64,000 nt of DNA, from positions 310,001 through 374,000 of the forward strand of contig NZ_CP069302.1 in NCBI RefSeq assembly GCF_016839145.1, given 5' to 3'. The translations under genes and the position numbers were made by a program. The notes beneath the pieces were generated by a model that saw only the letters and a list, made by a program, of their open reading frames with translations, did no database searches and was not told the DNA's origin. Of this stretch, positions 39,618 through 49,652 are shown in pieces (positions within the stretch are counted from its first letter, which is position 1; the number at the start of each line of letters is the position of its first letter). This DNA is from Shinella sp. PSBB067. Its GTDB lineage: Bacteria; Pseudomonadota; Alphaproteobacteria; Rhizobiales; Rhizobiaceae.

Positions 39618-39971
39618 TCAACCCTCCCGCAGGATACTGTCCATGGGCCGGCCTCGCGCCAGCTCGTCGATGAGTTTGTCGAGGTAGCGGATTTCCCGCA
39701 TGGTCGGCTCCTCTATGTCCTCCACCCGCACGCCGCAGACGACACCCTTGATCGAGCGCCGTGCGGGATTGAGCGCGGGCGCCTCCGCGAAGAACGTCTC
39801 GAAGTCGTTCTGCTGCGCGAGCCGGGCGTGAAGCTCCCTGTCGTCATAGCCCGTCAACCAGCAGATGATCCGGTCGACCTCGGCCTTCGTGCGCCCCTTC
39901 TTCCCGGCCTTGGCAACGTAGAGCGGATATACGCTCGCAAAGCTGGTCGTGTAGATCCTGTGTTTCGCCAT
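39618..39971 (-). CDS. DUF2200 family protein
   Basis: A 117-residue protein beginning [43 protein letters not shown] and ending with [30 protein letters not shown]. It matches the DUF2200 pattern almost end to end. Members are conserved in bacteria and occasionally annotated as YdhG-like, without known biochemistry. Start at 39971; an in-frame ATG eight codons upstream is unsupported. It is convergent with the ABC exporter and divergent from the amidohydrolase gene, with no operon partner. Confidence 0.8.
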
Positions 39972-40136
39972 GGGTTTTCGGCCCCGTCCTTGCAATTTCG
40001 GGGGGTGATTTCACATCCGATCGACGCGAGGATCAACCGGCGGGCGATGTTTTCCGCGCCAGTGCCGGGGCAGCGTGTGACGGCCGGCATGAGAATGTCC
40101 ACGGAACCCGTATGCTTTTCCGACGTTTAGGGCGTC

Positions 40137-40970
40137 ATGGAAACACGAGAGACGTCGGCGGATCTTGTCGCACAACCACTTTGGTCGATGACCCGGGGTC
40201 TTTCGCCGCTCGTCGGCACGGCCATTCATGACGGACATTTCCTGCACGAGGACGTCGCGGCGCTGATGGCATTGAGCCCGGACGACCGCCTGCGCGAGGA
40301 GGATCCGTTCACGGCGGCCTTCATCCAGGACCTCGGCAACCGTGTCGTCGTTCATCGTTCACGTTTCGAGGTCGACCTGAACAGGCCGCGCGAGGGTGCG
40401 GTCTATCTGCGCCCGGAACAGGCCTGGGGCCTCGACATCTGGCGTGAGCGACCCTCCACGGCGAGGGTCGAGGCGATACTGCGCCAGCACGACGGCTATT
40501 ACGAGATGCTGCATGCCCTGTTGTGCGACGTGCAGCGCGCGCATGGCCGCTTCATCCTGCTCGACATCCACAGCTACAACCATCGCCGCGCCGGTCCCGG
40601 CGCGCCGCCGACGGCCCAGGCGGATGCGCCCGACATCAACATCGGCACCTTCTCCATGGACAGGGCCTATTGGGCGCCGGTGCTCGATTCATTTATGGCG
40701 TGCCTGCGCCGCCAGCCCTTCCCAGGCCGGCAGCTCGACGTACGTGAGAATGTCGCCTTTGCCGGGAAGGGGGAGCAGACGCGCTTCGTCCATGCCCGTT
40801 TTCCCGGCACGGGCTGCGCCATCGCCGTGGAATTCAAGAAGATATTCATGGACGAGTGGACGGGAGAGCCCGATCCGCAGGCCATAGAGGCCCTGCGGGC
40901 GGCCATCCGCGCCAGCCTGCCGGTTCTGGAAGCGGCGCTCGCGGCCATGCCCGGCGGGAAAACGCCATGA
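40137..40970 (+). CDS. N-formylglutamate amidohydrolase family protein
   Basis: A 277-residue zinc-hydrolase-like protein. Family motifs are SPLVGTAIHDGHFLHEDVAAL (usual SxPHxG region modified to AIHDGH), HRSRFEVDLNRPREGAVYL, LLDIHSYNHRRAG and the C-terminal AVEFKKIFMDEWTGEPD. Classical members release formate from N-formyl-L-glutamate in histidine breakdown, but no hut genes are nearby. This divergent branch travels with QEGLA/DUF1704 and ATP-grasp genes. Its stop overlaps the next start (ATGA), so the three are one transcription unit. The true substrate is unknown. Confidence 0.8.
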   Translation: METRETSADLVAQPLWSMTRGLSPLVGTAIHDGHFLHEDVAALMALSPDDRLREEDPFTAAFIQDLGNRVVVHRSRFEVDLNRPREGAVYLRPEQAWGLDIWRERPSTARVEAILRQHDGYYEMLHALLCDVQRAHGRFILLDIHSYNHRRAGPGAPPTAQADAPDINIGTFSMDRAYWAPVLDSFMACLRRQPFPGRQLDVRENVAFAGKGEQTRFVHARFPGTGCAIAVEFKKIFMDEWTGEPDPQAIEALRAAIRASLPVLEAALAAMPGGKTP

Positions 40971-42820
40971 GCGGCCGGGCAAAGCCGGCGCAAGATGTCG
41001 GCGCCCGCGTTGCGGAAGCGCTCGACCACGGCCTGCCCGTGCGCCTCGATCTTCCAAGGCGTGGCCGCCTTCACCTCGATCGCCCGCTGCCGTTCCTCGC
41101 CGTGCATGTGGGACGGCGCGCGGCTCCCGCGGCGCGGGCTGCGGCGATGGCGAATGCCGCCTACCTCCTGGCCGGCAATCTTTCCGACGCGGCGGCCGTC
41201 GTGCGTGAGGTCGCCGCCCGTATGCGCGAGCAGTTCGGCGCATTCCTCGTGCTCGATTTCGGCGAGCTTTCCCGCGATCGATTGGCGAAGGACACGCCTT
41301 TTCTGGCGCCGTTCCGCATCAGCGTTTCCTCATCCTCCGACAAGGCTGCGGAACGGGCGCTGTCGGCCTTCGTCGGCGCGGTGGAGAAGATCGACGGGCG
41401 CTATCGCGCGCCGCGGATCGAGCGCTCGGCGCTTTCCGAGGATTCCCATTCCGGCCTTGCCCGTCGCCTGCCGGATTGTTCCACGCTCACCGTGCGGGTC
41501 GCTCCGATCTACAGGGTGCCGCAATCGCGCGCCGTCTATCCGGAATTGCAGGGGTGGCTGGTCGCCCATCTGCTCGATGCCGGCCTGCAGGCCGCGGCAC
41601 AGTTTTCGCGGACCGAGACGGCGCTTTCCCCCGCGACGCACCGGGCGCTTGGCCGCCGCGTCTTCGTCGAGGCCGTCACGCGGGCCGACCGGGCGATGGA
41701 CGAGATCGCCGCAAGCTTCGATTTCCTGCTCGCGGTCACGCCCATCAATGCCGACACCGCCTTCGAGGAATTCAGCGCCTCGGGTTTCGAGCGCGCGCCC
41801 GTCTTCCTCTACCGCCCGCTCGCCATCGACATTGCCGCGCGCAAGAAGGCCTTGTTCTCCATCACCCTCGACCGTTTCGAGGATCCCGTGCTGGAGAAGC
41901 TTTTCGGCGAAAAGCAGCAGGAGCTTGATCTGCAGCTCTCCATGCTTTCGGCGCGCGAAGACGGCCGTTTCGTCGAGATGAGCCGGGCGCTCTACGGCTC
42001 GGTCGATGCGCGGCTGGAGAAGGCGGCGCGCGACATTCTCGACGCGACGGCGCTTTCCGGCCGCGCGCGGGAGCCGCAGATGGTCGATCATCGCTATGTC
42101 GAGCGGCGGGCAAGAGCGATGATCGGCGGCTACAGCGCGCAGTTCTCCGCCTTCTCGCCGCGCGTCGAGGTGCGCGACGACCTTCCCGCCGGGCTCATGG
42201 TCTCCAGCGACCGCCTGCTGATCGCAAGCTCGACGACCATGGCCCGCGAGCGGGTGGAGGCGCTGCTGAGCCACGAGGTCGGCGTGCATCTCCTGACCTA
42301 TTGCAACGGCTCCGGCCACGGCCTGCGGCTCTTCCGCACCGGCCTTGCGGGCTATGAAGGTGCGCAGGAGGGCCTCGCCGTACTGGCGGAATATCTGGCG
42401 GGCGGGATGACGACGGCAAGGCTCCGGCTGATCGCGGCCCGCGTGGTCGCCTGCGCCGCCATGCTGGACGGGGCGAGCTTCGTGGAAACGTTCAGGCTGC
42501 TCTCGCGGGAGGAGGGGTTCCGGCCGCCGGCCGCCTTCAACATCGCGCTTCGACTGCATCGCGGCGGCGGGCTCGCCAAGGACGCCATCTACCTGCGCGG
42601 CCTTCTCGACATCCTCGCGCATCTGCGTGCCGGCGGCGACCTGGAGCCGTTCTGGCTCGGCAAGATCGCGGCCCGCCATTTTGCCGTGATGCAGGAGCTG
42701 AGCCAGCGCGGCCTGCTCAAGGCGCCCCGGCTCGTGCCGCAATTCATGACCGCCAGGGGCGCGCCCGAGCGCCTCGCCCGGCTTCGCGCCGGCCTCACCC
42801 CTCTCGATCTCGTCTCATAG
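40967..42820 (+). CDS. QEGLA-motif (DUF1704) zinc metallopeptidase
   Basis: A 617-residue protein. Residues ~1-270 form a poorly characterised N-terminal domain. The C-terminal half holds a zinc-peptidase core with H436-E437 and H441 in LLSHEVGVHLLT and Q467-E468 in GAQEGLAVLAEYL, the motif that names the family; E468 is a likely third zinc ligand. Bacterial members have been labelled 'flavohemoglobin expression-modulating'. Related eukaryotic MATCAP-type enzymes are carboxypeptidases that remove a C-terminal tyrosine or glutamates from tubulin. It overlaps the amidohydrolase gene and lies 9 bp before the ATP-grasp gene. Bacterial substrate unknown. Confidence 0.84.
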   Translation: MSGRAKPAQDVGARVAEALDHGLPVRLDLPRRGRLHLDRPLPFLAVHVGRRAAPAARAAAMANAAYLLAGNLSDAAAVVREVAARMREQFGAFLVLDFGELSRDRLAKDTPFLAPFRISVSSSSDKAAERALSAFVGAVEKIDGRYRAPRIERSALSEDSHSGLARRLPDCSTLTVRVAPIYRVPQSRAVYPELQGWLVAHLLDAGLQAAAQFSRTETALSPATHRALGRRVFVEAVTRADRAMDEIAASFDFLLAVTPINADTAFEEFSASGFERAPVFLYRPLAIDIAARKKALFSITLDRFEDPVLEKLFGEKQQELDLQLSMLSAREDGRFVEMSRALYGSVDARLEKAARDILDATALSGRAREPQMVDHRYVERRARAMIGGYSAQFSAFSPRVEVRDDLPAGLMVSSDRLLIASSTTMARERVEALLSHEVGVHLLTYCNGSGHGLRLFRTGLAGYEGAQEGLAVLAEYLAGGMTTARLRLIAARVVACAAMLDGASFVETFRLLSREEGFRPPAAFNIALRLHRGGGLAKDAIYLRGLLDILAHLRAGGDLEPFWLGKIAARHFAVMQELSQRGLLKAPRLVPQFMTARGAPERLARLRAGLTPLDLVS

Positions 42821-42829
42821 GAGCCTTCC

Positions 42830-43879
42830 ATGCGCATCGCATTCTTCGTCAATTCGATCGCCGACGAGAGCCCGCAGTTCACGACGACGGCCCTGGCGCT
42901 CGCCGCGCTCAACCGCGGACATGAAATCTGCTATGTCACGCCGGGCGATTTCGTGCTCCGCCCGGACGACAGCCTGTCCGTGCGCGGCCTCGTGCTGCCG
43001 TCCTCCGGCTACAAGAAGCCGGAAACGCTGCACAAGGACCTTCAGGGGGAGCGCGCGGAAAGCCGTGTCTTCGACATCGGCGAGATCGACGTGCTGTTCC
43101 TGCGCAACGATCCTTCCCTCGACATGACCGACAGGCCCTGGGCGACCAGCGTGGGGGCGCTGTTCGGGCGGCTCGCGGTGTTGCGCGGCACGCTGGTCGT
43201 CAACGATCCGGCGGGTCTCGCCAAGGCGCAGAACAAGCTCTACCTGCAGGACTTTCCCGCCTCCGTCCGGCCGGCGACGCTGGTCTCCAAGAGCATCGAG
43301 GAGATCCGGGCCTTCATCGAGGGGCAGAAGAGGAAGGGGGCGATCATCAAGCCGCTGCAGGGCTCGGGCGGCAAGAACGTCTTCAAGGTCACCTCGCCGG
43401 ACGACCACAACCTCAACCAGATCTTCGAGGCGGTGAGCGGGGAGGGCTACCTCATCGCCCAGAGCTTCATGCCGGAAGCCAGCGAGGGCGACGTGCGCTT
43501 CTTCGTGATGAACGGCCGGCCCCTGATGCGCGACGGCAAATATGCCGCCTTCCGCCGCGTGCCTGCCAAGGGCGAGATCCGCTCGAACGTCCATGTCGGC
43601 GGCGGCCCGGTGCGGGTCGAGGTGATGCCCGAAATGCTCGCCGTCGTCGAGGCCGTCCGCCCCAAGCTCGTGGAGGACGGCATGTTCCTCGTCGGCCTCG
43701 ACATCGTCGGCGACAAGATACTGGAGATAAACGTGTTCACGCCAGGCGGGCTCAGCAATCTCGCAGAGCTCTACGGAGCCAATTTCTCCGAGAGCGTGAT
43801 CGCCGCGCTCGAGGAGAAGATCGCCATACGCGAAGCCTACGGCCGCAGCATCGAGAACAGCCGGCTCGCGACGCTGTGA
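42830..43879 (+). CDS. ATP-grasp ligase, glutathione-synthetase-like
   Basis: A 349-residue GshB-like ligase. N-terminal domain MRIAFFVNSIADESPQFTTTALALAALNRGHEI, then DVLFLRNDPSLDMTDRPWA. The ATP-grasp core shows AIIKPLQGSGGKNVFKV, the acidic FVMNGRPL, EIRSNVHVGGGPVRVE and the Mg/ATP end ILEINVFTPGGLSN. Family enzymes join a carboxylate to an amine through an acyl phosphate. As third gene of the triad it likely acts on the same substrate that the peptidase and amidohydrolase process. AGGAG precedes the start. The IS30 element lies 39 bp beyond the stop. Confidence 0.83.
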   Translation: MRIAFFVNSIADESPQFTTTALALAALNRGHEICYVTPGDFVLRPDDSLSVRGLVLPSSGYKKPETLHKDLQGERAESRVFDIGEIDVLFLRNDPSLDMTDRPWATSVGALFGRLAVLRGTLVVNDPAGLAKAQNKLYLQDFPASVRPATLVSKSIEEIRAFIEGQKRKGAIIKPLQGSGGKNVFKVTSPDDHNLNQIFEAVSGEGYLIAQSFMPEASEGDVRFFVMNGRPLMRDGKYAAFRRVPAKGEIRSNVHVGGGPVRVEVMPEMLAVVEAVRPKLVEDGMFLVGLDIVGDKILEINVFTPGGLSNLAELYGANFSESVIAALEEKIAIREAYGRSIENSRLATL

Positions 43880-43999: not shown

Positions 44000-45010
44000 A
44001 TGAAACACACCTACTCCCACCTGGACCTGAATGAACGCCGCAGGATAGCGCGCTGGCGTCACGCCGGCCTGAGCGTCGATATCATCGCGGAGAAGCTGGG
44101 ACGTCATCGCTCGACGATCTTCCGCGAGGTTCGGCGCAACGTCTACATCGACAAGGAATGGCCTGATCTCAGCGGCTACCATTGCGCGACCGCGCATGAC
44201 ATGGCTTGCGAACGGCGGGCCAAGCTCAGGAAGCTCGCGCGCTTCTCGCATGTCCGCCAGTCCGTCATCGAACGGATCGTGCACGGCTGGTCGCCGCAAC
44301 AGATCGCCGGTCGGATGCGGCTGGAGCACCATCCGATTTCGGTCAGCCACGAGACGATCTACAAGTTTGCCTATTCGGCCGACGGACATGCCATCAAGCT
44401 CTGGAAACATCTGCCGGAACATCGTGCGCGACGCCGGCCACGTCATGCGAGGCGCCGGCATGGCCAGCGCTTCAGCCCGGATCTCAACATTTTGCGCCGC
44501 CCGGACGTGGTTGCCGATCGCAGGCAGTTCGGACATTGGGAATGCGACCTGATCCAGTTCCGCCAGAAGTTCGGCAAGGCGAACGTGACGTCACTGGTCG
44601 AGCGGGTCAGCCGCTTTGCTGTTCTCTTTCGCAACAACGACAGGCAGTCGCGCCCGATCATGGAGCGTCTCATCGGCGTGCTGCAGGCCCTGCCCCATCG
44701 CGCACGGCGCTCGATCACTTTCGACCGTGGGACGGAGTTTACCGACTGGCCCTACCTCCAGGCCGGGATCGGCTCCGCGACATGGTTCTGCGACCCGCAA
44801 TCGCCCTGGCAGAAAGGCACCGTCGAGAACACGAACGGGCGGGCCAGGAAATGGCTTTCGAGGGATGTCGATCCGCTCTCGATTACCGACCAGGATCTGA
44901 AGGACATCTGCGACCGGCTGAACACAACGCCACGCAAGTGCCTCGGCTACAAGACACCGGCCGAGGTCTTTCGCCAGAAGCTACTCGCGCAGATGCGATC
45001 CGGAGGGTAG
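44000..45010 (+). CDS. IS30-family transposase
   Basis: A 336-residue DDE transposase, full length for the family. The N-terminal HTH region reads HLDLNERRRIARWRHAGLSVDIIAEKLGRHRSTIFREVRRN, followed by a second HTH around WSPQQIAGRMRLEHHPISVSHETIYKFAY. Catalytic residues are in FGHWECDLIQF (D), SITFDRGTEFTDW (D) and KGTVENTNGRARKWLSR (E). The C-terminus LNTTPRKCLGYKTPAEVF is the IS30 signature. No frameshift or stop is seen, so it may be active. Confidence 0.95.
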   Translation: MKHTYSHLDLNERRRIARWRHAGLSVDIIAEKLGRHRSTIFREVRRNVYIDKEWPDLSGYHCATAHDMACERRAKLRKLARFSHVRQSVIERIVHGWSPQQIAGRMRLEHHPISVSHETIYKFAYSADGHAIKLWKHLPEHRARRRPRHARRRHGQRFSPDLNILRRPDVVADRRQFGHWECDLIQFRQKFGKANVTSLVERVSRFAVLFRNNDRQSRPIMERLIGVLQALPHRARRSITFDRGTEFTDWPYLQAGIGSATWFCDPQSPWQKGTVENTNGRARKWLSRDVDPLSITDQDLKDICDRLNTTPRKCLGYKTPAEVFRQKLLAQMRSGG

Positions 45011-45300: not shown

Positions 45301-45996
45301 TCAGTCGCGCGGGCCGTCGGCGAGCGCGGCGAGCCCGGCGAGGTCACGGATCAGGAGCTTCTGCCGCCCGCCTTCGACGAGCCCCTGCGATTCCCATGCG
45401 CTGAGGATACGCGACACCGTATGCAGCGTCGTGCCCGTCATCTCGGCTATGTCCTGGCGCGAAATGGGGAAGTCGATGCGGATGCCCTCCCCTTCCTTGC
45501 GGCCGGCCTGCTTGGAAAGGCGCAGCACGGCATGGGCGACACGGCGCTCCACTTCCTGCGTCGACATTTCCCGGATGCGGGTGTGGGCTTCCTCCAGCCG
45601 CTGGCCGATGGTCTGCATGGTGCTGACGGCAAGGCGCGGATTCTGCTCGACGAAATGCGGCCACAGGTCGGTCGGCCAGCCGAGGATGACGCTCTCGGTC
45701 GCCGCGCGCGCGGTGCCCGGATAGTCGGCGCGCTGCAGGGCCTTGGCAAATCCGAAGAGGTCGCCGGGATGCACGACGCGCACGATGATCTGCTGGCCGT
45801 CCTCCGTCACCTGCGTCACCTTCAGCCGGCCGTGCAGCAGGAGGAAGAAGCTCGTGGCCTGCTGGCCCTGTTCGAAGACGGCATCGCCCTGCGCCACGCG
45901 GCGTGCCGTTGCGTGGGTCAGAAGCCTGTCGAGATCCTCGTCGCTCATCCTGTCGAACAGGGCGAGCGACTGGACGACGGTCCGGTCAATCTTCAC
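45301..45996 (-). CDS. nnrR: Crp/Fnr-family nitric-oxide-responsive regulator
   Basis: A 231-residue regulator: cyclic-nucleotide-type sensor barrel (residues ~15-130; GDAVFEQGQQATSFFLLLHGRLKV, VHPGDLFGFAKAL), dimer helix, and HTH ISRQDIAEMTGTTLHTVSRILSAWESQGLV (residues ~178-208). It contains no cysteine at all, so it cannot carry an Fnr iron-sulfur cluster, which fits the DNR/NnrR branch that senses NO. It begins with GTG behind AAGGA. It borders nirV-nirK and is the natural activator of the TTGnn-N4-nnCAA sites found across this island. Confidence 0.87.
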   Translation of the reverse strand: MKIDRTVVQSLALFDRMSDEDLDRLLTHATARRVAQGDAVFEQGQQATSFFLLLHGRLKVTQVTEDGQQIIVRVVHPGDLFGFAKALQRADYPGTARAATESVILGWPTDLWPHFVEQNPRLAVSTMQTIGQRLEEAHTRIREMSTQEVERRVAHAVLRLSKQAGRKEGEGIRIDFPISRQDIAEMTGTTLHTVSRILSAWESQGLVEGGRQKLLIRDLAGLAALADGPRD

Positions 45997-46058
45997 GATA
46001 GAGTCCTTCTTGCGTGAAAGTTACCGGCTTCTATCACGCCTCTTCCTCCGCAGGAAGT

Positions 46059-46973
46059 TCAGAGGGGAATTCCGTGCTCCCGAAGCGTGGCGAGCAGCGG
46101 TGCATACCAGCGGGTATCCTTGACGAGCCGGAAGCCGACATTGTCGGGGGGAACGCCGACGGCGCAGCCGCCGCCCTTCGGATTGCGCACGAACGAGCTC
46201 ATGGCGGCGCGGTGCTTGCCGCTCGCGACATAGATGCCGCACGACGAGGCGTCGTTCACCACGCGCCCCGCCTTGTCGAGATTGACACGGCGGTTGCACG
46301 TCGCCGTCCACTCCCAGACGTTGCCGGCGAAATCGGCAAGGCCGTATTCGTTTTCGCCGAAACGGCCGAGCGCCTGGGGAACGGGATCGCGCGAGGCCTT
46401 GCGTGCCGCTTCGCGGCGATAGTCGGCAAGCCAGCGGTCCGCCGGATTGGTGCTGTTGATGTCGACGCCGAGCGCGTCGTCGGGAAAGCGCGATCCGGCG
46501 GCGAAGGCAAGGTCCTGGTCGCTCGGCAGGACCCAGATCTCGCCGGTTCTCGCGCCGAGCCATTTCGCATAGGCCATGGCGTCGTCATAGCTGACGCCCG
46601 TTGCCGGCGTATTGGCGGGGTCGGCCGGGGCGAAGCCGGGTTCGGCCGCCGCGCAGGCGCCGTCGGCGACGCAGCGCGCGTAGTCGCCGGCCGTGACCTG
46701 GTATTTCATGATGGTGAGCGGGCGCCGCACGGCGAGCGCCTTCACCGGGCCGTCCACGGCAAAGCCGTTGCGGAAGAATTCGCCGCTTTCACGATAGTCG
46801 AAGCTGCGCGGGGCGATTTCCACCGTCATCGGCTCGTCCAGCACGGGGCCGGCCGGCGCACTGCCGAGAAGGTCCGTCTTGAGCGCGAGCCCGCCGGCAA
46901 GGGCCGCGAGCAGGAGAGCGGGAAGAGCGAGCGATGTCCACGAATTGCCGGGCTTCGATGTCAGCACAGCCAT
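46059..46973 (-). CDS. nirV: NirV, formylglycine-generating-enzyme-fold protein
   Basis: A 304-residue protein with an N-terminal membrane anchor (residues ~12-32, SLALPALLLAALAGGLAL) and a periplasmic SUMF1/FGE domain. The domain has PLTIMKYQVTAGDYARCVADGAC, PATGVSYDDAMAYAKWLGARTGEIWVLPSDQDLAFAAG, EYGLADFAGNVWEWT and FVRNPKGGG. NirV genes follow nirK in many rhizobia; the role is not settled and real sulfatase-activating activity is doubtful here. The ATG at 46973 has GGAGG upstream. It follows nirK by 106 bp on the same strand. Confidence 0.88.
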   Translation of the reverse strand: MAVLTSKPGNSWTSLALPALLLAALAGGLALKTDLLGSAPAGPVLDEPMTVEIAPRSFDYRESGEFFRNGFAVDGPVKALAVRRPLTIMKYQVTAGDYARCVADGACAAAEPGFAPADPANTPATGVSYDDAMAYAKWLGARTGEIWVLPSDQDLAFAAGSRFPDDALGVDINSTNPADRWLADYRREAARKASRDPVPQALGRFGENEYGLADFAGNVWEWTATCNRRVNLDKAGRVVNDASSCGIYVASGKHRAAMSSFVRNPKGGGCAVGVPPDNVGFRLVKDTRWYAPLLATLREHGIPL

Positions 46974-47079
46974 GACGGCCTCCTTGCGCCTCGCCCGGAC
47001 GATCGTTCGCCGTCCGGGAGCGCGCCGCGTTTGGGAGATGTGCCCGCCGCAGGGCGGGCACATCGGTTTCACTCGGGCG

Positions 47080-48222
47080 TCAGGCGCCGCTCGGCGGGCT
47101 GACCGAGGTCATCAGGTCGTTGTTCCATTCGCCCTCGACCGTGAAGTGACCGGCCGCGCCCAGTTCGAAGGCCTCGATGAGGTTGTGGTTCACGTAGGCG
47201 TAAATGCCGGGCTGCTGGAAGGTGTAGAAGGCCGCGCCCGCCGTGCCGCCCGGAATGAACCAGGTTTCCTGGTCGACGTCAGGAACGTTGTGGAACTTGC
47301 CGGTTGCCCAGACATAGTCGCCGTGGCCACCGATGAGGTGGGGGCGGGTGTCGCGGTTGGCCTGCGAGTGCACGACGAGGACCTTCTCGCCCACCTTCGC
47401 CTTGAGGGCATTGTCGCCGGTGAGAGCCCCGACGGCGCCGTTGAAGACGATATGGCTCGGGGTCAGCGTGCGCATGACCTTCAGCGTGTCGTCATAGGCT
47501 TCGCCGACGCTGTCGTACTTCTTGTAGTTCCCCTCTTCGTCGCGGGGCACGTAGAAGTCCTGCTCGCCGACATAGTAGACGCGGTCGTAGGTCAGTTCCT
47601 TGCCGTGGCCGTCCGTCAGGCCTTCGCGCGGCAGGACCATGATCGCACCGTTCATGCCCGAGGTGACGTGCCACGGAACCATGCCGGGAGGTGCGCAATG
47701 GTAGACGAAGACGCCGGCCTTGGTGGCCTTGAAGCGCAGGATCGTCTGCTCGCCGGGGTTGACCACCGTCAGCGCGCCGCCGCCGAGGGCGCCGGTTGCC
47801 GCGTGGAAGTCGATGTTGTGCTGCAGCTCGTTGGTCTCGGGGTTGATGAGCGTCAGCTCGACATAGTCGTCCTGGTGCACGACCATCAGCGGGCCCGGGA
47901 CCGAGCCGTTGAAGGTCATGGCGTGGACTTCCGTGCCCTTGTCGTCGAGGATCAGCTTCTTTTCCTCGATCTTCATGGTGAATTCGTAGATCTTCGGGCC
48001 GCCTTCGGCCTTCTGGGTGTGGGCATGAACGAAGGGCGGCTTGACAAGCTCGACCTTCACCCGTTCCAGCTTTGCGATGTCGGCCGCCGTTGCGGCTGCA
48101 TTGGTCTGGATGGCGCCGCCTTCGGCCCGCGCCACCGATGCAGCAATGATCGGCGTCAGAACGCCGGCGAGGGCGGCACCGCCGAGAATGGTGCGGCGTG
48201 TTATCTGAAACTGCTCAGTCAT
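47080..48222 (-). CDS. nirK: Copper-containing nitrite reductase
   Basis: A 380-residue periplasmic enzyme reducing nitrite to nitric oxide. The N-terminal signal is of the Tat type ([15 protein letters not shown], residues 7-21; cleavage near ARA). Type 1 copper ligands H135, C176, H185 and M190 and type 2 ligands H140 and H175 are present, with catalytic D138. The third type 2 ligand is in [14 protein letters not shown]. Two cupredoxin domains give the class I length. An NnrR-type box lies 79 bp upstream of its start, and nirV follows. Confidence 0.96.
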
Positions 48223-48300
48223 TGCATTTCTCCTTGGTTGAAAGGACGGGCGGTGTGTCGCCCTGTCGTTTCTGTTCTAGGAGCATTCGCGCCGGCCTCT

Positions 48301-48314
48301 TTGAGTTGGGACAA
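48301..48314 (-). promoter_or_regulatory. Candidate NnrR box for nirK
   Basis: TTGAG-TTGG-GACAA, a TTG-N8-CAA dyad. Its centre is 85 bp before the nirK start. If it acts at about -41, transcription would begin some 44 bp before the gene. Confidence 0.68.
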
Positions 48315-48364
48315 AGAGGGCTTTTTCCCGGATGCGGCATTTTGGCAGCCCGCCGATTTGCTCT

Positions 48365-48378
48365 TTGCCATCTCGCAA
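48365..48378 (+). promoter_or_regulatory. Candidate NnrR box for nnrS
   Basis: TTGCC-ATCT-CGCAA, flanked by T and A to give TTTGCC...CGCAAAG. Its centre is 66 bp before the nnrS start, leaving a leader of about 25 nt if placed at -41. Confidence 0.75.
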
Positions 48379-48437
48379 AGAAGCGCCCACGTCTCTCCCC
48401 TAAAAGAAGCTGACAATTGCAAAGGAAAGAGACGATC

Positions 48438-49652
48438 ATGACTGCAAGCCAACCCGCAGCGCGCGTCAGCCGCGCCGTCCCGCGCGGCCTCTCCCGCACC
48501 GGTCCGGTTCTGTTTTCCTACGGCTTCCGGCCGTTCTTCTTGGCCGGCGGCGTGTGGGCCGTGGTCGCCATGGTGCTGTGGATCGCGACGATCACCGGCC
48601 GGATCGATCTTGCCGGCGACTACGGCGCGCCGAACTGGCACGCCCACGAAATGCTCTTCGGCTTCGCATCCGCCGTGCTCGCCGGCTTCCTGCTCACGGC
48701 GGTGCCGAACTGGACGGGGCGGCTGCCCGTATCCGGCTGGCCGCTCGCCGGGCTCTTCGGCCTGTGGTGCGCCGGACGCCTCGCGCTGCTGGCCGCCGAC
48801 CGGATCGGCGTGGTGGAGGCGGCCGTCATCGACGGCCTCTTCCTGCCGGTTCTCCTCGGCATCTGCACGCGGGAGATCGTCGCCGGGCGCAAATGGAAGG
48901 ACCTGAAGATTCTCGGCGGCCTGCTGGCGCTGTCGCTGGCCAATGCGGTCTTCCACGTGGCGGTCATCGGCGGCGGGGACGACCACATGGCGATTCGCCT
49001 GGGCGTCGCCGCCTATGTCGTGCTGGTGATGATCGTCGGCGGCCGCATCGTGCCGAGCTTCACGCGCAACTGGCTCAACAAGGTCGGCCGCAGCGATTTC
49101 CCGGTGCCGTACAATCGTTTCGACACCGCGGCCATCCTTGCCGGCGTCGCGGCCCTCGCCGCCTGGACGGCGGTGCCGGCGCATCCCGCCACCGCCGGCC
49201 TCGGGATCGTCGCCGCCGTCCTGCACGCCATTCGCCTGCGCCGCTGGCGCGGCTGGACGACGCTGCCGGAAAAGCTGCTCGTCGTCCTCCACGTCGCCTA
49301 TGCCTTCGTGCCCCTCGGGCTGCTCGCCATCGCGTTCAGCGCGCTCGGCTACCTGGAGGAGCGCTCGGTGCTCCACGTGCTGTCGGTCGGCGCGATCGCC
49401 TGCATGATGCTGGCGGTGATGACGCGCGCCAGCCTCGGCCATACCGGCCGGCCCCTGGCGGCCTCGCGCCTCACCGTCGCCGCCTATGTGGCGCTGGTGC
49501 TTTGCGCGCTGGTGCGCCCGTTCGGCGAAGTGCTTCCCGATGCCAGCGAACAAATCTATGCGGCCGCGGGCCTGCTGTGGATCGTGGCCTTCGGGCTCTT
49601 CTGCCTGGAATATGCCCCGATCCTCGCGCGCAAGCGGCGTGTGCCCCTGTGA
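48438..49652 (+). CDS. nnrS: NnrS family haem-copper-type membrane protein
   Basis: A 404-residue integral membrane protein with about 12 hydrophobic segments. Family landmarks are LFSYGFRPFFLAGGVWAVVAM, NWHAHEMLFGFASAVLAGFLLTAVPNWTG, VGGRIVPSFTRNWL and VMTRASLGHTGRPLAA. His residues in the WHAHE and SLGHTG segments are likely metal or haem ligands. NnrS is tied to nitrosative-stress protection in denitrifiers. ATG 48438 (MTASQPAAR) has AAGGAAAGAG upstream. Divergent from nirK with its own NnrR-type box. Confidence 0.92.
   Translation: MTASQPAARVSRAVPRGLSRTGPVLFSYGFRPFFLAGGVWAVVAMVLWIATITGRIDLAGDYGAPNWHAHEMLFGFASAVLAGFLLTAVPNWTGRLPVSGWPLAGLFGLWCAGRLALLAADRIGVVEAAVIDGLFLPVLLGICTREIVAGRKWKDLKILGGLLALSLANAVFHVAVIGGGDDHMAIRLGVAAYVVLVMIVGGRIVPSFTRNWLNKVGRSDFPVPYNRFDTAAILAGVAALAAWTAVPAHPATAGLGIVAAVLHAIRLRRWRGWTTLPEKLLVVLHVAYAFVPLGLLAIAFSALGYLEERSVLHVLSVGAIACMMLAVMTRASLGHTGRPLAASRLTVAAYVALVLCALVRPFGEVLPDASEQIYAAAGLLWIVAFGLFCLEYAPILARKRRVPL

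Follow-up and report, generated by a model that had tools for sequence, protein, structure and literature searches.

A conserved amidohydrolase, MATCAP-type peptidase and ATP-grasp ligase triad in Shinella as a candidate module for amino-acid ligation and trimming

What could a ligase that probably attaches an amino acid accomplish in a bacterium together with two hydrolases that probably take one off? The question is raised by three tightly packed plus-strand genes in a 64,000-nucleotide (nt) stretch of Shinella sp. PSBB067 (contig NZ_CP069302.1, positions 310,001 to 374,000), which is referred to here as the window and lies on the 375,573-base contig of a genome with four contigs. NFGA (40137..40970) encodes a protein of 277 residues that looks, from its sequence, like an active enzyme of the N-formylglutamate amidohydrolase family, PEP (40967..42820) a long-form MATCAP/QEGLA metallopeptidase of 617 residues and GRASP (42830..43879) a 349-residue ATP-grasp ligase of the PRK12458 clade. 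A sequence-only reading had described these genes as a coupled triad, and its coordinates and frames proved correct upon rechecking: the ATG of PEP at 40967 overlaps the stop codon of NFGA (ATGA), and GRASP starts 9 nt beyond the end of PEP. The triad is a real, well conserved unit. We give even chances to the proposal that the triad is self-contained and serves to ligate and trim amino acids; judged by sequence, the ligase probably adds an amino acid and the two hydrolases remove one. Gene coupling, folds, intact motifs, an inactive pseudo-domain and a gene fusion are read from sequences and structure models, while chemistry, substrate and an identical role in Shinella are what we infer.

Conservation and coupling of the three genes

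A profile scan of genome contigs with the peptidase alignment returned at least 560 relatives, the best 80 of which are near relatives, mostly from Hyphomicrobiales. In all 80 of these nearest loci NFGA, PEP and GRASP are kept in the same order and on the same strand, which is more than chance would give. In Devosia sp. A8/3-2 (L053) the amidohydrolase and the ligase each match in two pieces over two frames, which may reflect a frame break or a sequencing error. With boundaries set by the longest open reading frames (ORFs), the ligase starts no more than 18 nt after the peptidase stop codon in 79 of the 80 loci, the gap amounting to 113 nt in L108. Pairwise distances of the three proteins are correlated (Spearman 0.68-0.71, reached by none of 300 permutations each), which is expected of a cassette that is inherited together; interaction is not proven by such a correlation alone. 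The same triad resides on plasmid pShin-02 of Shinella sp. HZN7, where it is annotated as N-formylglutamate amidohydrolase, QEGLA motif protein and glutathione synthetase, and on pSymB of Sinorhizobium meliloti 1021 (NC_003078.1, about 1123000-1126800), which makes its function directly testable. Among 72,556 plasmid records 114 match the peptidase, 79 of them from Sinorhizobium.

No other neighbor recurs as widely in these relatives: among the 41 largest ORF families (down to 12 loci), none besides shadow frames occurs in more than 30 of 81 loci. The idea that a regulator or transporter is conserved beside the alphaproteobacterial triads was rejected: within these families, ABC transporter parts turn up here and there (30 and 18 loci), and 13 loci have a permease-like family. 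Likewise, among ORFs of 18-90 residues within 700 nt on either side the largest group covers 8 of 81 loci, and with no widely conserved small ORF beside the ligase a precursor of a ribosomally synthesized and post-translationally modified peptide (RiPP) of the graspetide kind was rejected.

The coupling extends to distant bacteria. In 299 genomes sampled from the phylum, MATCAP genes were found in 29 and PRK12458 ligases above the cut-off in eight (10 matches); nine of these ten ligases adjoin a MATCAP gene, and for the tenth a contig ends 48 nt from its start. Among 121 Vibrionaceae genomes all 40 ligases adjoin a MATCAP gene on the same strand, 39 of these in fusion-sized frames. Conversely, 39 of the 41 Vibrionaceae MATCAP genes with frames of at least 600 residues adjoin a ligase, as does one of nine with shorter frames. 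The two long exceptions are an intact-looking fusion (G399) and a gene without detectable match to the amidohydrolase family, FGase (G340). In a separate sample, drawn from the genus of G243, the fusion is present in seven genomes and the ligase in five of them, being absent from G329 with an intact and G307 with a broken fusion. All of these counts lack phylogenetic independence. In loci other than the alphaproteobacterial ones and the fusions, NFGA adjoins the peptidase in L145 and L165 and lies 1.4 kb upstream in L148 and 2 kb off in L163; it was not found near L149, and contig ends close to L164, L166 and L167 preclude a call there. One genome, G113, harbors three ligase-bearing loci (L149, L163 and L164) as well as a MATCAP fragment at a contig edge. 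Polyamine (puu-like) neighbors of the Vibrio locus L146 were dropped as a clue, as they are not among the neighbors shown for other Vibrio loci.

Folds and active sites of the encoded proteins

The assignment of PEP to the group related to tubulin-trimming MATCAP carboxypeptidases is borne out by scores above the cut-offs of PF08014 (312.6, cut-off 27) and of the QEGLA family TIGR02421 (360.8, cut-off 338.65). An AlphaFold model (predicted local distance difference test, pLDDT, 90.6; predicted template modelling score, pTM, 0.87) places residues 254-617 (41726..42817) in the MATCAP fold at about 22% identity to MATCAP. The metal motif HEVGVH (residues 436-441, 42272..42289) and the QEGLA motif (residues 467-471, 42365..42379), in which E468 is the probable third metal ligand, are both intact; H436, E437, G439, H441, Q467, E468, G469 and A471 are invariant in 81 of 81 sequences, and so is V440. 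They align with the HExxxH and EEG motifs of MATCAP1 (structure 7z5g), the former of which contains E281, a residue required for activity. The window's genome contains this one MATCAP gene according to a genome search.

The N-terminus of PEP holds an observation that the sequence-only reading had overlooked. Residues 30-217 (41054..41617) adopt an FGase/M14-type fold lacking the catalytic histidine, that is, judged by sequence and structure model, this domain is a degenerate, inactive amidohydrolase. FGase-MATCAP fusion genes also exist in other bacteria, including Vibrionaceae. Other arrangements were seen as well: at L147:6158-9110 a long-form MATCAP gene without ligase stands beside an AstE/AspA-type amidohydrolase, a different amidohydrolase in the FGase slot; at L137:3043-5617 a short-form MATCAP gene adjoins a true RimK gene (RimK equivalog 448.7, cut-off 331); and in L132 and L135 short-form MATCAP genes come after two genes classed by eye, one small and lipoprotein-like, the other TetR-like, the lipoprotein-like gene of L132 having no Pfam match.

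The separate amidohydrolase NFGA belongs to the FGase family by both domain score (PF05013, 87 bits, cut-off 28.9) and fold. The earlier description as N-formylglutamate amidohydrolase-like holds; the protein falls far short of the HutG N-formylglutamate deformylase equivalog TIGR02017 (29.8 vs cut-off 278.75). It is the weakest of six FGase matches in the window's genome. According to structure models, the FGase fold lies near those of M14 carboxypeptidases and poly-gamma-glutamate hydrolases.

The ligase GRASP is a member of the GSH-S_ATP family (PF02955, 166.4, cut-off 23) and of subfamily PRK12458 (NF009110, 459.5 bits, cut-off 408). Its closest solved structure is E. coli GshB (1gsa, phmmer 6.4e-33), with which it shares domains as well as ATP- and metal-binding residues; R86, R210, R225, R233, D273, E281 and N283 of the E. 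coli enzyme are kept in 86 or 87 of 87 clade sequences. GRASP is nevertheless set apart from GshB, scoring below the equivalog cut-offs of PRK05246 (208.4 vs 272) and TIGR01380 (200.3 vs 299.05), and is also not assigned to the RimK subfamily TIGR00768 (60.5 vs 143.4). In the 299 phylum genomes PRK12458 members form a score group of their own (459-488 bits, next matches at most 241 bits), and the clade carries an altered TSPTCIRE loop: in GRASP the signature FTPGGLSNL (residues 303-311, 43736..43762) replaces TSPTCIREI of GshB. At the column of E. coli C289, 83 of the 87 clade ligases have glycine and four alanine, and at that of R291 none has arginine or lysine versus four of four GshB proteins of other genomes, a criterion of our own rather than a published one, for which L002 was left out of the GshB set because it had been read in a shadow frame. 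On another contig, the window's genome has a second GSH-S_ATP gene, which matches GshB more strongly.

What the module may do

We picture the following sequence of events. The ATP-grasp ligase would activate the carboxylate of a peptide or protein as an acyl phosphate and add an amino acid, as do GshB and RimK. The MATCAP peptidase would trim C-terminal residues, like its human relatives that remove tyrosine and shorten glutamate chains, and NFGA might cut an N-acyl or gamma-glutamyl-type bond beyond the reach of the peptidase. The dead FGase-like domain of PEP could hold and present the substrate or pair with the live NFGA. The substrate is likeliest, perhaps, glutamate or a glutamate chain, and the likeliest setting may be adaptation to low external osmolarity, i.e. 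osmotic downshift.

TTL and TTLL ligases are ATP-grasp enzymes and the CCP deglutamylases are M14 enzymes. The tubulin system built from them parallels the triad in its ATP-grasp ligase and in the nearness of FGase to the M14 fold, and the MATCAP/TMCP tubulin carboxypeptidases share with PEP the MATCAP fold, HExxxH and the (E/Q)EG motif. The triad differs in that it is bacterial and operates without tubulin, that its peptidase carries a pseudo-FGase domain and that its ligase is GshB-like. Iyer, Abhiman, Burroughs and Aravind reportedly predicted in 2009 ATP-grasp amidoligases in operons with peptidases, and may already have mentioned a related gene set. No work treating the three genes together was found among the open-licence papers searched.

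Human TMCPs shorten glutamate chains (PMC10499314). Ligase/peptidase pairs acting on protein tails are already known in bacteria from RimK/RimB (PMC11957791), so that it is the variant with MATCAP and FGase that appears to be new. The RimABK system of Pseudomonas resembles the triad in that an ATP-grasp amino-acid ligase is co-encoded with a peptidase removing what the ligase adds (PMC11957791), and RimB-RimK hybrid proteins parallel the FGase-MATCAP fusions (PMC11957791, PMC12239564). In contrast, its peptidase is a retropepsin-like aspartic enzyme rather than MATCAP or FGase, and its ligase is a true RimK. RloABC of P. aeruginosa is likewise an operon of an ATP-grasp protein and a peptidase, tied to hypo-osmotic tolerance, which the rlo genes control, and RloA cuts polyglutamate (PMC12239564); RloA, however, is a secreted aspartic protease and RloB a membrane protein, neither of which occurs in the window's triad.

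Osmotic clues stem from other bacteria. When Photobacterium damselae RM-71 grows at 1% instead of 3% NaCl, A0J47_RS17020, listed as 'Glutathione synthase GshB', is up 38.4-fold, the QEGLA protein RS17025 with the neighboring tag 27.5-fold and RimK 52.2-fold (PMC10308900). RS17020 and RS17025 would be a ligase-MATCAP pair, judging from tag order and genus-wide conservation: the ligase adjoins a MATCAP gene in 35 of 35 sampled genomes of the genus taken to be Photobacterium. The gene called GshB in Table 2 of that study, where it is compared with V. cholerae gshB, is probably a triad-type ligase; if so, the reading in terms of glutathione may need revision (PMC10308900).

In Vibrionaceae an HdfR-like LysR gene lies near the triad-type locus in 16 of 16 loci read and a DUF413 gene in 15 of 16, the usual layout being LysR divergent from DUF413-ligase-fusion. 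The DUF413 gene is presumably maoP-like. HdfR is the nearest match to the LysR protein of L145, which remains below the HdfR cut-off (172.8 vs 240); E. coli HdfR binds the gltBD promoter (PMC2984483). A further lineage has RloA-, RloB- and RloC-like genes after the ligase in four of six loci, and a fifth retains vestiges of two. These families were assigned on one locus, L165, whose RloC-like protein exceeds the TIGR02291 cut-off.

Taken to its full extent, the idea becomes a bacterial glutamylation cycle built on the three folds of the tubulin code. The ATP-grasp enzyme would write, MATCAP would trim the chain and the M14-like FGase would take off the terminal or branch-point residue, the part that CCP5 plays on tubulin. 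Osmotic downshift would induce the cycle together with RimK, and it would either tag a protein or store free glutamate as osmotically silent oligomers, with the inactive FGase-like domain as a substrate-holding scaffold. In this elaborate form we consider it rather unlikely. Several findings weigh against an osmotic glutamate module in Shinella or against obligate coupling of its parts. The osmotic and glutamate links derive from Gammaproteobacteria and other genomes, and no rlo, hdfR or DUF413 gene is among the 41 largest ORF families around alphaproteobacterial triads. A search of the window's genome detected no PF05618 (retropepsin-like, RimB-type) protease. Of the proteins of L165, those resembling RloA and RloB stay below their cut-offs (110.6 vs 210 and 414.2 vs 900), and as 1,808 P. 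damselae genes change at low salt (PMC10308900), induction alone is weak evidence. Distribution is patchy: a sample of 249 genomes from the window's order contains just three with a MATCAP gene, which means that bacteria can do without the module. A rule that every MATCAP gene has a ligase was rejected, since 22 of the 29 MATCAP genomes of the phylum sample are without a PRK12458 ligase above the cut-off. Furthermore, four peptidase genes in Vibrionaceae that belong to the FGase-linked type (in G329, G399, G307 and G340) are without the ligase, showing that the hydrolases can be kept alone, and six other clade ligases exceed the PRK05246 cut-off of 272 (277.8-295.2), while remaining below that of TIGR01380 (237.1-249.3).

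Three other explanations compete with this module. Possible, though we doubt it, is a small-peptide pathway, in which the product of the ligase, an osmolyte or a peptide resembling glutathione, is matured or recycled by the hydrolases and no protein is modified. The close relation to 1gsa, the retained GshB residues, the six members passing PRK05246 and the want of a conserved target gene beside the cassette speak for it; the other GshB-like gene in the same genome, the altered loop and the protein tails that human MATCAP relatives attack speak against it. The earlier suggestion of a modification cycle or a small-peptide pathway is upheld in part; the target may be a protein or a small peptide. 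An improbable explanation is salvage, with hydrolases degrading modified peptides and the ligase as a co-inherited accessory. Two of the three genes encode hydrolases, and the ligase-less peptidase genes in Vibrionaceae and the phylum sample agree with it, but where the Vibrionaceae ligase is present it is beside the peptidase in 40 of 40 cases, and its catalytic residues are retained in at least 86 of 87 sequences.

Very improbable, finally, is that the ligase is merely a paralogue of glutathione synthetase, one of the outcomes that the sequence-only reading had named as refuting its proposal, and that the two peptidases are unrelated to it and linked by operon hitch-hiking. In its favor, NCBI names the PRK12458 subfamily glutathione synthetase, the P. 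damselae authors name RS17020 GshB (PMC10308900), and six clade members exceed the PRK05246 cut-off. On the other hand, the gap in score between PRK12458 ligases and their next matches, linkage across distant families and the FGase-MATCAP fusion speak against it.

As far as the literature searched shows, MATCAP peptidases have been characterized in eukaryotes only, and their bacterial relatives go by the name 'flavohemoglobin expression-modulating'. One branch of these relatives now stands as part of a fixed unit that also comprises an amidohydrolase and a ligase, and for which low salt is probably a condition of strong expression. If this unit is a set of writer, trimmer and eraser, bacteria would have a counterpart to the tubulin modification machinery at the level of folds.

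Surroundings of the triad in the window

A reading as an anti-phage defence system was dropped: the three proteins matched none of the PADLOC families at E 0.01, and the peptidase is without match in 50,697 phage records. Next after the triad, at 44000-45010 and directly downstream, comes a transposase gene with HTH_38 and rve domains, which we take to be IS30-like. It is followed at 45301-49652 by genes for nitrite reduction and nitric oxide (NO)-related functions, namely a Crp-type regulator, an FGE-sulfatase-domain protein (presumably NirV-like), a copper oxidase (presumably NirK-like) and NnrS. The name of the bacterial peptidase family refers to flavohemoglobin, and these NO-related genes lie downstream of the triad; they are not among its conserved neighbors in the loci of relatives. 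On the other side, a DUF2200 gene on the minus strand (39618-39995) is located between an ABC exporter and the triad.

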